Shown piece by piece: positions 37,747 through 43,557 of a stretch of 43,557 nt of DNA (position 1 is its first letter; every line of letters begins with the position of its first letter). The notes beneath the pieces were generated by a model. It was given only the letters and a program-made list of their open reading frames with translations. It did not search any database and was not told the DNA's origin. The position numbers and the translations under genes are program-made. Origin of the DNA: Akkermansiaceae bacterium (GTDB taxonomy: Bacteria; Verrucomicrobiota; Verrucomicrobiia; Verrucomicrobiales; Akkermansiaceae); contig CAIVSK010000247.1 in assembly GCA_903908495.1 (NCBI GenBank), positions 1-43,557 on the forward strand. Direction: 5' to 3'.

Positions 37747-38304
37747 TCAACGATCTCTCGAACCCTCGAGTGACTTAAAAATCCAATTCTCATCACCTTT
37801 GACTTGTATGCTAAACTCAGAATTAAGCATCACCGCATCCTTAACTTTCGCAAAACGAGGGTCATCTTCGCCAATCGTTAAATTTTCGGCAAGCCCACCG
37901 ACGAAAACGTACGCATCTAGATCCTTTGATTCACAGTGAAAGGCCACAGCAACGGTAAACGGATCAGAATCAGAAAGAATTCCATTTCGGGCAAAATATA
38001 CAGTTTTCCCATTGAGATCGGTGGTGATCTGCTGCCTTTCCGCTTGAGAGAATCTCAACAACGACCTGTTCACGTCATTCTCAGAAACGGCACCATGCAA
38101 TTGCAATAAATCATTAACTATCGGAACTATGCCCAAACCTCCCTCTTTCGCACTCATTTGTTCCTTTCCCCAAGTATTCTTGTGCCGCCACCCGGACGGG
38201 CCAAAGATGTAGTGCCCCTTGGAACAACAAACTGATAGAAAAGCCTCGGCACTGATGGCTGAAGCACCAATACAAATAAATAGAATGTGGCGGTTCCAAT
38301 ACAT
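37747..38304 (-). CDS. Putative immunity protein of RHS module 1
   Basis: The 185-residue product starts 13 bp after the RHS-1 stop on the same strand. The ATG at 38304 is preferred because it lies directly after the toxin gene and opens with a hydrophobic stretch (HILFICIGASAISAEAFLSV) that may be a signal peptide or anchor. The rest is a mixed alpha/beta sequence with no family I recognise (LRFSQAERQQITTDLNGKTV, SDPFTVAVAFHCESKDLDAY). Base composition is AT-richer than the flanking core DNA. Position and size suggest it protects the cell from the RHS-1 tip; this is inferred from gene order only. Confidence 0.6.
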   Translation of the reverse strand: MYWNRHILFICIGASAISAEAFLSVCCSKGHYIFGPSGWRHKNTWGKEQMSAKEGGLGIVPIVNDLLQLHGAVSENDVNRSLLRFSQAERQQITTDLNGKTVYFARNGILSDSDPFTVAVAFHCESKDLDAYVFVGGLAENLTIGEDDPRFAKVKDAVMLNSEFSIQVKGDENWIFKSLEGSRDR

Positions 38305-38317
38305 GAAGTCTATTGAT

Positions 38318-39226
38318 CTATTTGTATACAGGTCCATCCTTGCCAGGACTGACACCCTTATCTGGAAGCGTAATTTTTTGCCCTAACAGTTTCGACAACT
38401 CATTTTCAAGTGCTTCATCATGAGCCGAGCACCCATAGATGTTTATCTTCCCACCCTTGCACAAAAAACTCTTAATTGTCTTGAGGCTCGCCGCGAACTT
38501 TATGGCGTCTTTGTAAAGCGGAATTTCATACATTTTATGAAGTTTCCCATTGTCTCGTTCTTTTGGGTGGGCCTTGTAGTAGTCATATAAATCAAAAAAC
38601 TCATTTGCCCTTTTCATTGCCGCAGCATCGAATCCTTTCCCTGCGGGTTCATCTTCATATAACTGTCCCGGCCTACCCTCAAGATATAGATCAACTGAAA
38701 TTGCGCAATTACATGGATCCTTCCCGTCTTGATTGTAGGTTCCAATTATCTTAGTCATGCTTGACGTTACGTCATCCATTGAATCGACTATCATTGTGGT
38801 AGGCGCGTAAAACGTCTCATTTACCCAGCGGTCAAAGTCGCTCGAACCCTTCCATAAGTTATATGAGAAGGTGTATTGTTTAAGTCCAAGCAAATCCCAC
38901 CTTCCCACTCCATCGTTGCCGACGAACCCATAGAGATTCATCCCGCCATTTTCCTTAATCGGGTCCCTGGATGGCCAGCGGCCTGTCAGCGGATCGTAGT
39001 AACGATATCCGTAGTATGCTACATGGTTGATTTTGTTACTAGCTTGACTTTCACCTAATCCGTTATTGCTCAACGGATTGGGTGAATTTCCTGGTACTGG
39101 CGGTGTGGGCCGGGTCGGCGGCGAAAGCGGTCCGGATCCGGGTGAATGACCGGCGTAGCCGGTGTCCAGGCCGCCGGAATTCGGCGGCTTTAGAGTGGGA
39201 GTCGGGTCTGAAATGATTACTGTCAT
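38318..39226 (-). CDS. RHS C-terminal module 1 with unrecognised tip domain
   Basis: The 302-residue product has a Pro-rich N-terminal part ([16 protein letters not shown]...SPPTRPTPP), the end of the RHS core at residues 68-115 ([19 protein letters not shown] then [10 protein letters not shown]) and a variable tip from ~116. The tip is unknown to me; its end ([20 protein letters not shown]) recalls the Cys-His stretch of several RHS tips, but no catalytic set can be proven. The long RHS barrel and any secretion signal are missing, so this is an orphan module, not a full toxin; the ATG at 39226 is shared with module 2. The tip DNA is AT-rich compared with the core. It is followed by the putative immunity gene and preceded, on the other strand, by an IS66 relic. 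Confidence 0.7.
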
Positions 39227-39656
39227 GGCTGGATGTCGGAAACACCCCTCATACGGGACTTTTCCGGGTTGCGGCGCTCGGGCGAGGGCATCGTTCTAAA
39301 GCAGGTCATTTTCCAAGCGCAATGATGCGCCTGTTGGCGACCGATGGAAGTTCAATCGGCGAAGCCGAAAGGAATTGTGTCTGACCGGAAGGAAATGTGG
39401 CTTGGCTCTTCGTGGGAGGTGAGGCCACCCCTCAGCGCGCCGCGATCATTTATACCCTCGTGGAATTCGCCCGCCGCCACGGCCACCTCCCGGAAACCTA
39501 CCTCCGCGACGTGCTCGAACGCCTGCCTGTCATCACAAACCAAGACGACCGCGGCGCGTTGCTGCAGTCGCTGGCACCCAACCGCCGCTACCGGACCGGC
39601 CGCCGACGTTGAAGCCACGATCTGTCTGAGCTGAAGCATGCCGACTCATAGGTAAC
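38911..39656. repeat. Duplicated block, copy A (RHS core end + leader + IS66 relic)
   Basis: About 750 bp nearly identical to 41266-42017. It covers the RHS core end, the Pro-rich N-terminal part and ATG of the module, ~115 bp upstream of that ATG, and the IS66 3' relic on the opposite strand. Similarity fades on one side into the tip and on the other after GAAGC(A/G)TGCCGAC. The leader and relic are closest in sequence; the core end is more diverged. Confidence 0.9.
39397..39612 (+). pseudogene. IS66 family transposase 3' relic, copy A
   Basis: The frame reads WLFVGGEATPQRAAIIYTLV, then RRHGHLPETYLRDVLERLP, then a remnant of the LLP region. This is the C-terminal element of IS66 transposases, where (N)WLFxGSExGxxRAAxIYSLxE leads to YLRDVLxRIP. 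Everything upstream, including the DDE core and the end of GRKN, is missing or scrambled, so only the last ~70 residues remain. It is antisense to the RHS genes and lies ~170 bp from the RHS-1 start. Confidence 0.75.
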
Positions 39657-39755
39657 ATAAACATGGCCGCAGCCTAGCAGTCCCGGCCGACTTGACTGGG
39701 TGGTGAATTTAGACACGCTTACGTTTGATCCGGCAGGGGGGGCTCCACAACGCAG

Positions 39756-39871
39756 TGAGAATATTCCAGCGACACCTCGAACAAATGTTGCCATGCGAGG
39801 ACTGACCCCACCGATGAGAATATTTCAGCGACACCTCGAACAAATGTTACCATGCGAGGACTGACCCCACT
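39756..39871. repeat. 59-bp tandem duplication
   Basis: Two head-to-tail copies with a 59-bp period (39756-39814 and 39815-39871). Each holds AATATT(C/T)CAGCGACACC and a CATGCGAGGACTGACCCCA end. They differ at only a few bases. They lie between the IS66 relic and the immunity gene of module 2, in a stretch with no gene. Confidence 0.85.
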
Positions 39872-39963
39872 GAGGGGAGGCAACGAAATGGGATCTTCTA
39901 GGCTTTTCCGGCGAGAAGCTGTGTCTTACCGTGGCCCGCCTTGATTGGCCAGTCCGTCACAAC

Positions 39964-40536
39964 TCATTTTTCTACCTGAATAGACTTGAGCACATCACCA
40001 AATGCAGTCTTCAGAGCATCGTGATTTCGGGCGCTTAGGTGCTCGGGCAAGTTTGGCATTGTTACCAGTGATTGTCGATTCCCCAAGGGGTCAATGTATT
40101 CAAAGAGCCAGAGATCACCATCGCTGGCTGCCATTTGTGCTACAGCTTCGTCTAGGTCAATAGGTGCCGTTGGAGCCGATCTAATCAAGTTTTTTATGAG
40201 CTTCATAAAATCCCCGCTCGTTTCAACTCGGTTAATGGATTTCACCTCTCCTCGTGAGTTGATCGTTCGAAATATCAGCTTCCTTGACTCACCCTCAAAC
40301 AATACAAGTTCACCGCTTCCGTCCCTTCTTGAAACTCCAATTTGAACGACAAAAAGTTCTTTTGGACCAAGCCTGCGCATCAGAATTGACTTTGCATTGA
40401 ACCGATGCGTAAACTCTTCTGCAGGAAAATGCTGGTTGTCATCACCTGTAGCTCCTCCGGATAAACGAGCCGTGAAGGAAAGCAATACTGCTATCGATGA
40501 TATAATGAGGCACCAATACGAGTGTAATTTTTTCAT
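39964..40536 (-). CDS. Putative immunity protein of RHS module 2
   Basis: The 190-residue product starts at the ATG at 40536, which overlaps the RHS-2 stop as ATGA, so the two are probably translated together. It opens with an export signal or anchor ([28 protein letters not shown]). The mature part is unrecognised: mixed strands and helices with [20 protein letters not shown], then [22 protein letters not shown]. Composition is AT-rich. The tight coupling and small size suggest immunity against the JAMM-like tip; the signal would place it in the periplasm or outer envelope, which is where the toxin might then act. Confidence 0.65.
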
Positions 40537-41585
40537 GGGCACGGATTGTTCCTTGGTATCTGATGGGACTGTTCAAGGCTTTCAGTTCCATTTGGCAATC
40601 TTGATACCTTGGTTTGTTGGTATCCGGATACCCAACCAATAAACTCGGGAGTCTGAGAGCTTGGAGCTTGGCGAACGGACGTAAAGTTATCATTCTCAAC
40701 CATAACCCCGGCCCGCATTACCGCATCGTAACGATCTGGATGCGTAAAGCGTTCCCAATCCACACCTGAGGGATTATCAGAGGTCCCACCTATAGACATT
40801 GGATGAGAATGGTATTTAGCCAAAGCCTCATAGCCTTCCGGGCAAAGATCGAGATAAATCTTTTTTCCGTCCGCGGCTTTCTTTGTATTGTTCATCCAAT
40901 TATACACTTCCTCCCGCCCTTGGGTTGGTCCAGTGAAAATCACATGGTTCCGTTTTGTGCCATCACTACACTTGAAACATTTTGAGCAGACCATACCCCC
41001 ATGCTCTCTTTCTCCCTTGCCCATTGCCGCGGCCCCGCCATTAAGGGGAGCCAAAGAGAGTCGTAGCGACTCCATCGCAATTGAGTATCCAAAATATTCA
41101 CCGGCAGCAACCTTTTCATTATCTGCAACCCAGATTTCCTTGGGCCCATTGTAGGCCTCGATTGTAGGGGGCTTTCTTCTCCTATCTGACTCCGCTTGTC
41201 GCGCTGCGGCATCTCTTTCGCTCTTATTCGGCTTTTTCTCATTACCGAGATCATCAATCCAATCATTGGAATCATTCCCCACAAAGCCATATAGATTCGG
41301 CACGCCATCTTCACCGATGGGGTCCCTGGATGGCCAGCGGCCGGTGAGCGGGTCATAGTACCGGTATCCGTAATATGCCACATGGTTGATTTTGTCCCAA
41401 GGTTGACTTTCTTCCAACCCGTTCTTGGTCAATGGATTGGATGAACTTCCGGGTGCCGGCGGTGTGGGCCGGGTCGGCGGCGAAAGCGGTCCGGATCCGG
41501 GTGAATGACCGGCGTCGCCGGTGTCCAGGCCGCCGGAATTCGGCGGCTTTAGAGTGGGAGTCGGGTCTGGCATGATAACTGTCAT
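40533..41585 (-). CDS. RHS C-terminal module 2 with JAMM/DUF4329-like metallopeptidase tip
   Basis: The 350-residue module has the same Pro-rich start and RHS core end (residues 68-115) as module 1, then a charged spacer and a new tip. The tip contains YHSHPMS (H259, H261) followed by PSGVDW (S273, D276), the HxH...SxxD zinc signature of JAB/MPN (JAMM) metallopeptidases as used in DUF4329-type polymorphic toxin domains; the gap between HxH and S is longer than the usual seven residues. A Cys cluster CSKCFKC (C200, C203, C206) lies before it. Known relatives cut isopeptide or peptide bonds; peptidoglycan is a possible target. It is an orphan module without the RHS shell. The immunity candidate overlaps its stop. 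Confidence 0.75.
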
Positions 41586-42017
41586 GGCTGGATGTCGGAA
41601 ACACCCCTCATACGGGACTTTTCCGGGTTGCGGGGCTCGGGCGAGGGCATCGTTCTAAAGCAGGTCATTTTCCAAGCGCAATGATGCGCCTGTTGGCGAC
41701 CGATGGAAGTTCAATCGGCGCAGCCGAAAGGAATTGTGTCTGACCGGAAGGAAATGTGGCTTGGCTCTTCGTGGGAAGTGAGGCCACCCCTCAGCGCGCC
41801 GCGATCATTTATACCCTCGTGGAATTCTCCCGCCGCCACGGCCACTTCCTGGAAACCTACCTCGGCGACGTGCTCGAACGCTTGCCTGTCATCACCAACC
41901 AGGACGACCGCGGCCGCGTTGCTCCAGTCGCTGGCACCCAACCGCCGCTACCGGACCAGTCGCCGACGTTGAAGCCACGATCTGTCTGAGCTGAAGCGTG
42001 CCGACGCATACATAACA
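41266..42017. repeat. Duplicated block, copy B (RHS core end + leader + IS66 relic)
   Basis: Second copy of the block at 38911-39656, with the same order and orientation. It differs mainly in the RHS core end and by a single extra C in the IS66 relic. A third RHS core end is cut by the right window edge, so more copies may follow. Confidence 0.9.
41756..41972 (+). pseudogene. IS66 family transposase 3' relic, copy B
   Basis: Same fragment as copy A: WLFVGSEATPQRAAIIYTLV, then YLGDVLERLPVITNQDDRG. An extra base around 41912-41916 moves the last ~20 codons to another frame compared with copy A. It is antisense to the RHS-2 gene. Confidence 0.75.
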
Positions 42018-42033
42018 TACACACCAGTGTATG
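42016..42033. repeat. Small perfect inverted repeat at the end of block B
   Basis: CATACAC (42016-42022) and GTGTATG (42027-42033) form a 7-bp stem with a 4-base loop. It lies exactly where the similarity between blocks A and B stops, so it may mark a recombination or insertion end; copy A has no equivalent. Confidence 0.4.
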
Positions 42034-42438
42034 CGATCTATGCAAACCCGGCCAGCAGCTTCCAACGCCCACTCATAGAGCGCTTACGCCAGCACCGGTC
42101 AACATATCGTGACGGAACGGGCATCAAGCCAAAATCCCCGGCCGCCCGGTTCCCTGATTCACCATTACTTCGGGATTGTCACAAGTCGTGGGGAAGAACG
42201 AGGCAATGCTCATCAGTCATCCGGTGCCATTCTCACCCGACCCGATCTAGCAAATGAAATGTGGCAATTAAAGGACCAGCCCCACCGAAGTGGTTGCCCA
42301 ACAGACAGTAGGACACTGCCCGGAAAACCGAGAAATTCTCTGAATCTGATTATTTCACCGTCCCCATATACAATGCCCAACTAATTATTCATAATCTATC
42401 AAAGATAGCGGCCGAAATCCACAACTCAGTAGCTGTGG
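42034..42438. other. Spacer between IS66 relic B and immunity gene 3
   Basis: About 400 bp in which I see no gene, repeat or clear signal. Composition moves from GC-rich to AT-rich toward the immunity gene. Short open frames here have no start context or recognisable product. Confidence 0.5.
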
Positions 42439-42903
42439 CTAGTGCCCGTCGACTGATGGCTTTCCTTGAGAAGGGGCGCTCGCGTGTTCGGCAAATGGAT
42501 CTGGACCGGTCGCTTCATGCGCTTCCCATGCGGGAGGAGTTTTTTGCCGCTCTCCGTTCCGCTTAAACACCCCGAGGACCTTGCGATCTGGACCTTCCTT
42601 GGTAACAACACAAAGGTCGTCTGGAAAGAACACTGTAAACGTATATGTCACACCGCCTTTGCTAGTTTGCTCGAAAACCCACCCACCACTGTTGGGCGGA
42701 TATTCTTTACTTCTACCTCCAACGTACGCCCGGCTCGGGTTGAAAGGATCAATTCCTACTGCTTTAGCCATCTTTTGGCAGATACCAGCCGCTTCGACCA
42801 AGGAAACTGCAGGAACGACTCCGTCCGGCAAATGATAGGTGTCCGACCTAGAGTCGATCGACCCAAGGATTAGTATCGACAGAATTGTCAAGATGTATTT
42901 CAT
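42439..42903 (-). CDS. Putative immunity protein of RHS module 3
   Basis: The 154-residue product starts at 42903, 4 bp after the RHS-3 stop. It opens with a short signal peptide (MKYILTILSILILGSIDSRS). The mature part is unrecognised (YVGGRSKEYPPNSGGWVFEQ, GVTYTFTVFFPDDLCVVTKE) and ends in a Pro/Glu/Ala-rich tail. An upstream in-frame start at 42969 lies inside the toxin gene and is less likely. AT-rich like the other two partner genes. It probably protects against the HExxH tip in the periplasm; inferred from gene order and the signal. Confidence 0.65.
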   Translation of the reverse strand: MKYILTILSILILGSIDSRSDTYHLPDGVVPAVSLVEAAGICQKMAKAVGIDPFNPSRAYVGGRSKEYPPNSGGWVFEQTSKGGVTYTFTVFFPDDLCVVTKEGPDRKVLGVFKRNGERQKTPPAWEAHEATGPDPFAEHASAPSQGKPSVDGH

Positions 42904-42907
42904 AGCA

Positions 42908-43557
42908 CTATTTTCCACAAGATCCATATTCAATCGCTCCGCTGGCGGCGCTTCCTGACATTCTGCCATGATTCATATCTACAATCCAGCGAGACAATAC
43001 TTCGTCAAAATCTTTCTGCCTAGGTTGCAACAGGAGGCCGGGAGAATACGTTGTGTAATCCGCCTTGGATTTTGACCCAGGATTGATGAAGTGATCTGGG
43101 TCACAAACCAAGTCATTGAGGAGGTCATTATAGACATCGGTAAGGCGCTTCGCCGCGGCTTTGCACTGATCTGTCGATCCGTACATGCACGGCTCTTGGA
43201 TTAGTTTTCGAATAAGCCTATTCTTCACCCTCCATGCCCAGCTTATGACATGGAGCTTCTCATGATTCAGATTTCCTCTATAGTTTGCCGTCCCCTGCTT
43301 ATCTCTGCTGTTATTCATTTGAATCCATGACGCCGCAATAACCAAGCAGCGTACCGAACATCCCTTGCATTCGCAGGAAACGTTGCCCGCCACAGTGGTA
43401 ACCCCGTCGCGATCGCCCGGGGTGTCGCCATTATCAATCGTAACATTATTCGGTGTGGTGAAAAAGAAGTCAACGGGTAGCAGCCCCAGAGGATCATTGG
43501 CATCCACCCCATCATTCCCCACGAATCCATACAGGTTCGCTCCACCCTTTTCCCCGA
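42908..43557 (-). CDS. RHS C-terminal module 3 with HExxH metallopeptidase-like tip (5' end off window)
   Basis: The frame is open to the right edge, where it reads [10 protein letters not shown], the end of the RHS core, so the rest of the RHS protein lies outside; the GTG at 43522 is an internal Val. The visible tip is about 200 residues. It has a Cys cluster (CECKGCSVRC) followed ~30 residues later by LNHEKLHVISW, an HExxH zinc-peptidase motif at nt 43250-43264. A third zinc ligand cannot be named. This could be the tip of a full-length RHS effector or another orphan module; the sequence beyond the window decides. The immunity candidate follows after 4 bp. Confidence 0.7.
   Translation of the reverse strand, partial: GEKGGANLYGFVGNDGVDANDPLGLLPVDFFFTTPNNVTIDNGDTPGDRDGVTTVAGNVSCECKGCSVRCLVIAASWIQMNNSRDKQGTANYRGNLNHEKLHVISWAWRVKNRLIRKLIQEPCMYGSTDQCKAAAKRLTDVYNDLLNDLVCDPDHFINPGSKSKADYTTYSPGLLLQPRQKDFDEVLSRWIVDMNHGRMSGSAASGAIEYGSCGK

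Follow-up and report, generated by a model that had tools for sequence, protein, structure and literature searches.

An array of short orphan RHS cassettes with a repeated, mosaic start block in an Akkermansiaceae bacterium

The right end of contig CAIVSK010000247.1 (C247) of an Akkermansiaceae bacterium (GCA_903908495.1, 6.19 Mb in 432 contigs) carries three minus-strand RHS modules in line (37747-43557), each comprising the end of an RHS core, a variable C-terminal tip and a small partner gene. The 3' ends of IS66 transposases lie antisense to them, on the plus strand, between modules A and B and between B and C. The window analyzed is this entire contig, 43,557 nucleotides in length. What, then, does the sequence repeated in front of these modules do? 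By its sequence features the array is one of orphan RHS tip/partner cassettes, a known kind of locus, here in a short-gene form, and we consider it likely that the 5' block shared by the cassettes acts as passive homology for exchange.

Block A (38912-39663) and block B (41271-42023) are direct repeats 2359-2360 bases apart, with 91.8% identity over 753 columns, far beyond chance. A third copy, 82% identical to A, ends contig C334 beside an RHS module with a different tip, and a shorter piece precedes the RHS module at the start of contig C46. Exchange via the block is supported by the match between its copies, 92% (A/B) and 82% (A/C334), while the tips are unmatched. A block scattered over the genome away from RHS tips had been named in the preliminary description as contrary to such a role, and this was not the distribution observed: the upstream element of the block was found at four places in this genome, all of them preceding RHS modules, and full copies of the block were seen nowhere in the genome except beside RHS modules. 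One small leader fragment of 62 bases stands apart (C147:29014), ~4.4 kb from the nearest RHS core. The same search of 72 other genomes returned three places in two genomes, two of the three preceding an RHS core; at the third (G019:C360) an IS66 piece lies at nearly the same junction and no RHS core was found.

The history of the block differs along its length. In the core segment the aligned copies of A, B and C334 are equidistant (79.9, 81.0 and 80.4% identity), whereas over 39091-39663 the identity between A and B is 94.9% in the N-terminal half of the leader, 99.1% in the upstream region and 94.7% in the relic, with C334 at 75-88%. Past 39663 the relation reverses, the relic tail of A being 84% identical to that of C334 and 40% to that of B. 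The description of leader plus relic as nearly identical between copies therefore fits the N-terminal half of the leader, the upstream region and the relic (95-99% between A and B), but not the core (80%), nor the far end, where the relic of B runs on to 42088 and A/B homology stops at 39663. At 166 informative sites up to 39663, A equals B at 14 of 46 to the left of the break and at 100 of 120 to its right. The best single breakpoint falls at 39098-39116 with a chi-square of 43.3, a value reached by none of 5000 permutations (highest 23.3), and a second mosaic boundary lies at 39663. Beyond that boundary the tail of A overlaps a repeat present on contigs C402, C52, C154 and C355, and the relic of B continues to 42088 at ~90% identity with contig-end stretches of another genome (G036), which are probably IS66 tails. 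Because the pair of copies in agreement changes along the block, which a difference in rate alone cannot bring about, the simplest account is one of exchange, or of a replacement of the tip together with the core, and exchange through the block has probably happened.

The three modules are borne out by their open reading frames (ORFs), by profile matches for A and B and by the comparison of their tips. Short RHS gene A (38318-39226, minus strand) consists of a leader (39017-39226), the end of the core (38885-39016) and a tip (38321-38878); its partner (37747-38355, minus strand) is an ORF for a putative immunity protein with a hydrophobic N-terminus from an inner ATG at ~38304-38337 and no family match. 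Short RHS gene B (40533-41585, minus strand) has its tip at 40536-41237, and its partner ORF (39964-40542, minus strand), likewise a putative immunity gene, has a signal-peptide-like start. Both genes match the RHS-associated core TIGR03696 (A 52.2 bits, B 52.1 bits, cut-off 32.5). RHS gene C (42908-43557, minus strand) is cut by the contig end, beyond which its 5' part lies, and matches only the last 25 positions of TIGR03696, at 14.5 bits and below the cut-off; its tip (42911-43471) carries an HExxH motif (HEKLH), and its putative immunity partner (42439-42969, minus strand) has, by eye, a signal-peptide-like segment from an inner ATG. Three features of orphan modules are present: the C-terminal part of the core precedes the tip (A and B), tips differ behind conserved sequence, and a partner follows directly downstream.

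The claim that each module has its own ATG and upstream region holds for A and B; the leader of C and any relic upstream of it lie beyond the contig end. An upstream ORF of 28 codons precedes RHS gene A (39223-39309, minus strand) and RHS gene B (41582-41668, minus strand), with its TGA overlapping the RHS start codon as ATGA; the overlap, with an upstream ORF of 28-29 codons, is found in A, B and C334. A conserved upstream element (39227-39340, minus strand) apparently represents the remains of a second RHS leader type, found in C46, G019:C102 and G029:C435. That second type (L148, L149, L147 and L021, the last being C46 1-330) carries a short inverted repeat that reads TTTCGTT/AACGAAA both in G019:C102 and in G029:C435; in G019:C360 it reads TTTGGTT/AACCAAA, a matching double change, and in C46 it is lost. 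For a GTCTAAC motif in the second leader type an integron-like reading was considered. On C368 (L159), an RHS frame (2-1627) leaves the left edge of the contig just before its core repeat and is not joined to the array; contigs C247, C334, C46 and C368 of this assembly each have an end that falls within an RHS gene or close to one.

Tips A, B and C are mutually unmatched (no pair below E 0.3), and PDB sequence searches with the tips gave chance-level matches only (best E 0.19). Tip A had no relative in family profile or PDB sequence searches. Tip B contains a JAB-like stretch, HSHP...SGVD, which scores 14.7 bits against Prok-JAB, below the cut-off of 25; its structure model, with a predicted local distance difference test score (pLDDT) of 35, was too poor for a fold search. 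By sequence tip B resembles a tip on C147 (27.6% over 87 residues, E 4e-4). For tip C a partial structure model was obtained (pLDDT 57), and a fold search with it returned nothing at E 0.001. Tip C and the C334 tip show no direct match to one another; both have a relative in G019:C102, and HExxH is present in four of the five aligned tips (window C, L148, C334 and L126; not L077). This tip family occurs in 6 of 73 genomes of the genus, a set with one genome per species, at eight places on frames of 132-400 codons, including the third module of locus L142, four of the eight places being members of the search model itself. In Haloferula luteola (L077) a relative of the C334 tip, with its match split over two frames, adjoins a relative of the C334 partner, and one tip family recurs behind different leaders. 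A further match to the HExxH tip family was seen in this genome at G000:C379:25663-25863, on a contig without an RHS core match.

The explanation we favor starts from what is observed directly, namely the anatomy, the repetition of the block, its mosaic breakpoints, the dissimilarity of tips beside matching flanks and the tip family behind different leaders. A cassette would be a short RHS gene, made of a leader, the last ~45 core residues and a variable tip, followed by a mostly exported-looking partner, the tips being putative toxins and the partners putative immunity proteins. The shared 5' block, comprising IS66 relic, upstream region, leader and core, would serve as passive homology, such that recombination between blocks swaps or adds pieces while tip and partner move as a pair. 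Ordinary homologous recombination would be the agent, and the short genes, which have no visible export signal, may be kept in reserve for an exported RHS protein of full length. One insertion upstream of a module is the most likely origin of the IS66 relic, which would then have been copied along with that module as a passenger.

To place the short-gene form, we compared 127 deduplicated modules. In 86 the core is preceded by fewer than 200 codons, 60 of these modules being complete and 26 cut by a contig or locus end. The source loci are mainly the best 80 of 141 matches to this leader plus core, so frequencies among them are not neutral; 74 of 78 loci are labeled Verrucomicrobiota and four carry other labels (L066, L084, L103 and L123). 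The short gene is built from a leader of 66-79 codons, the final ~45 residues of the core and a tip, and the partner that follows usually looks exported. In 20 modules the ATG stands 198-237 bases before the core and the leaders (66-79 codons) align, 14 of the 20 beginning with MT; these 20 were chosen for leader similarity and come from this genome, six differently named bins and two further genomes, some of them perhaps identical.

Several related loci show comparable arrangements. Three short modules of one leader type stand in tandem in L142 (G006:C367), with leader-core blocks 74-80% identical and an IS66-like stretch before the second module. In L075, modules lie at 1874 and 4150 with a third leader at the end, and leader and relic are repeated. 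A full-length gene is present in L140 (G026:C147), where an RHS frame of 2069 codons is followed by an antisense relic 0.8 kb past its stop, an RHS module on the opposite strand and, after it, a short module. Relics in antisense orientation likewise stand beyond the tips of L076, L096, L132, L133 and L143.

The antisense IS66 3' relics reported between the modules are present as described. Relic A (39387-39663, plus strand) contains a match to the IS66 C-terminal element PF13817 (39454-39564), the frame at 39397-39612 scoring 33.9 bits against a cut-off of 30; the 46 bases preceding 39387 are of uncertain origin. Relic B (41746-42088, plus strand) scores 18.5 bits, below the same cut-off, and reaches the probable right end of the element (GCGCTTACG, 42080-42088), which was placed from the end of homology and which we presume to be an IS66 end motif. 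For both relics the match begins at residue 459 of a 533-residue relative, and a complete transposase is absent here. The whole genome holds IS66 C-terminal matches in A, B, C334 and C46 and a single weak one in a frame of 817 codons (E 0.36), and no intact IS66 was found in this profile scan of the genome. Between relic A and partner gene B lie two tandem copies of a 59-base repeat (39756-39873; L016, L018, L019 and L020) that recurs elsewhere in the genome, with its core on C402, C52, C154 and C355, like a dispersed repetitive extragenic palindromic (REP)-type repeat; C334 ends in it.

As a fixed part of the repeat unit in general, the relic did not hold up, an antisense relic lying upstream, by profile, of 4 of the 86 short modules and 4 of the 60 complete ones; 58 of the 86 had at least 600 bases to search, and the loci are not a neutral set, similarity to the leader or to IS66 having been part of the reason for their selection. 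The proposal that the block supplies the homology for swapping or adding modules accordingly stands as regards exchange within it, seen in the mosaic of A, B and C334 and the breakpoint test, without the relic as a fixed cassette component. A special attachment of IS66 to RHS cores was considered and dropped: among the matches listed, elements within ~5 kb of an RHS core numbered 8/80 for IS66_C, 2/53 for IS110 and 1/83 for rve (Fisher p 0.02), as counted by eye and with the cores of C334 and C46 taken from a separate RHS-core scan, a choice that favors this genome, and the excess depends on this genome (5/77 for IS66_C without it, p 0.14). In a one-contig genome (L138, G049:C1:3438000-3452000) an intact IS66 transposase and an RHS core lie ~3.5 kb apart on opposite strands, a layout that is possibly an early state of the relic arrangement.

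Three other explanations deserve consideration, the least improbable being that the short RHS genes work autonomously, each being transcribed and translated from a start region of its own, with a product that acts without an RHS cage or leaves by some novel export route. We regard this as doubtful. The 20 modules from several bins whose leaders align from the ATG speak for it, as do the upstream ORF and its ATGA overlap, kept in A, B and C334, with two C334 indels that sum to three bases. Changes between A and B fall mostly at third codon positions (9, 7 and 27 by position), and 39272-39391 is 93-95% conserved between A and C334 compared with 78% on either side. Those 20 modules were, however, picked for leader similarity, and an ATG 195-245 bases before the core is no commoner in short complete frames (23/60) than in middle-length (9/25) or long ones (4/10), for which reason ATG position was no longer counted as evidence for a genuine start. 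No signal peptide is evident by eye in the leaders of the 20 modules, unlike several long RHS genes (2 of 13 by rule, and several more by eye: L104, L117, L140 and L146). Constraint on the leader is weak, with a median ratio of nonsynonymous to synonymous change (pN/pS) of 0.74 over 18 related pairs, 16 of them below 1. A promoter-like (sigma70-like) TATC motif precedes the ATG in 6 of 68 modules, whose leaders are all related (p 0.016 ignoring relatedness), and in none of the modules of the window.

The repeated unit could instead be a mobile element that uses its IS66 3' end and right terminus to move RHS cassettes, a reading we hold to be highly improbable. It would account for a relic B that reaches a probable right terminus, for the IS66 piece of G019:C360, from another species, whose junction with this upstream element falls at almost the identical transposase residue, and for the antisense orientation of the relic in 14 of 16 module-by-side pairs (profile matches near RHS modules). 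It fits poorly with a profile scan of this genome that found no intact IS66, with the 82 of 86 short modules that have no upstream relic by profile, with an IS66-RHS association that is not significant once this genome is removed, and with C46, the exception to the antisense pattern, where the relic shares the strand of the module and lies downstream of the partner; nor was a left end noticed, ends and target duplications not having been searched for systematically. Plain tandem duplication followed by divergence, with no exchange and with tips diverged beyond recognition, agrees with the spacing of A and B as direct repeats. We consider it very unlikely in view of the sharp shifts in which copies agree, which differences in rate alone cannot produce, and of unrelated tips beside flanks at 82-99% identity.

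Several points also weigh against an orphan cassette array whose shared block acts as homology for exchange. The core stretch in common with a full-length gene is sometimes short, as in L140 (110 bp at 87%), and no move of a tip onto a full-length RHS gene was seen: none of the eight matches to the tip C family lies on a frame of more than 400 codons, and tip B occurs in 1 of the 73 genomes, this one. The leader pN/pS is only weakly below 1, and the leader may be relaxed rather than functional. The scarcity of upstream relics, lacking by profile in those 82 of 86 short modules, counts against a block of constant composition. Repeats in a bin of 432 contigs are prone to assembly effects that may hide or misplace copies, and toxicity, immunity, expression and recombination are all properties read here from sequence.

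Partner genes were judged by a simple hydropathy rule, under which the partner looks exported in 38 of the 46 complete short modules that have a partner ORF (51 of 70 including cut ones), compared with 11 of 22 RHS genes of middle length and 7 of 9 long ones. Short and long genes are alike in this respect (51/70 vs 7/9, p 1.0), so that an exported partner appears to be a trait of these RHS systems generally. A first background (9 of 49 frames) contains spurious frames and was not used. All six partners examined in this genome begin with an export-like segment, five by the rule and C by eye, and partners in L064, L075, L142 and other loci often start with signal-peptide or lipoprotein-like segments. 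Such starts would put the targets of the tips in the cell envelope.

In Salmonella, an orphan rhs recombines with the main rhs through 522 bp at 95% identity (PMC3967940), and the present array resembles the orphan rhs-CT/rhsI modules of Enterobacteriaceae in the tip after the RHS core, the small downstream partner, the single orientation of the array and the core as a recombination arm. The enteric orphan modules are usually without translation initiation signals (PMC3967940), whereas A, B and C334 have leaders with a putative ATG start, an overlapping upstream ORF and an IS66 relic within the repeated block; the word "usually" makes this a difference and not an exclusion. Transposases between orphan cassettes have already been reported in cdi arrays, which share the tandem toxin/immunity cassettes, the intervening transposase genes and a proposed role as reserve or fossil record; those cassettes belong to CdiA and not RHS, and here the transposase piece is repeated within the block and shares its mosaic history. 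Polymorphic toxin systems, including Tox-JAB-2, likewise have standalone toxin/immunity cassettes feeding a constant body, and their H[ST]H, S and D motif resembles tip B (PMC3482391); tip B differs in falling below the Pfam JAB cut-off, and the present cassettes have their own leader. Compared with IS66 family transposases, of which relic A retains PF13817 above cut-off, only the 3' end survives, and no intact copy was found in the genome. No description of such arrays in this bacterial group was found among the titles and abstract openings searched. What is added here is a repeated start block with leader, upstream ORF and relic, together with mosaic evidence within that block.

A wider proposal, which we advance tentatively and think rather unlikely as a whole, is that the short RHS genes of Verrucomicrobiota are complete expression cassettes, in which a start region and a coupled upstream ORF or promoter precede the leader, the core end and the tip, with an exported partner behind them. 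On this view the start block would be both an expression signal and a joint for trading tips between loci and species, unlike the silent enteric fragments. Were that block expressed as well as exchanged, orphan toxin cassettes would not have to await fusion to a full-length gene, and the swapping joint would be readable from sequence in many verrucomicrobial genomes. The array would thereby offer a natural test bed for how toxin arrays grow.

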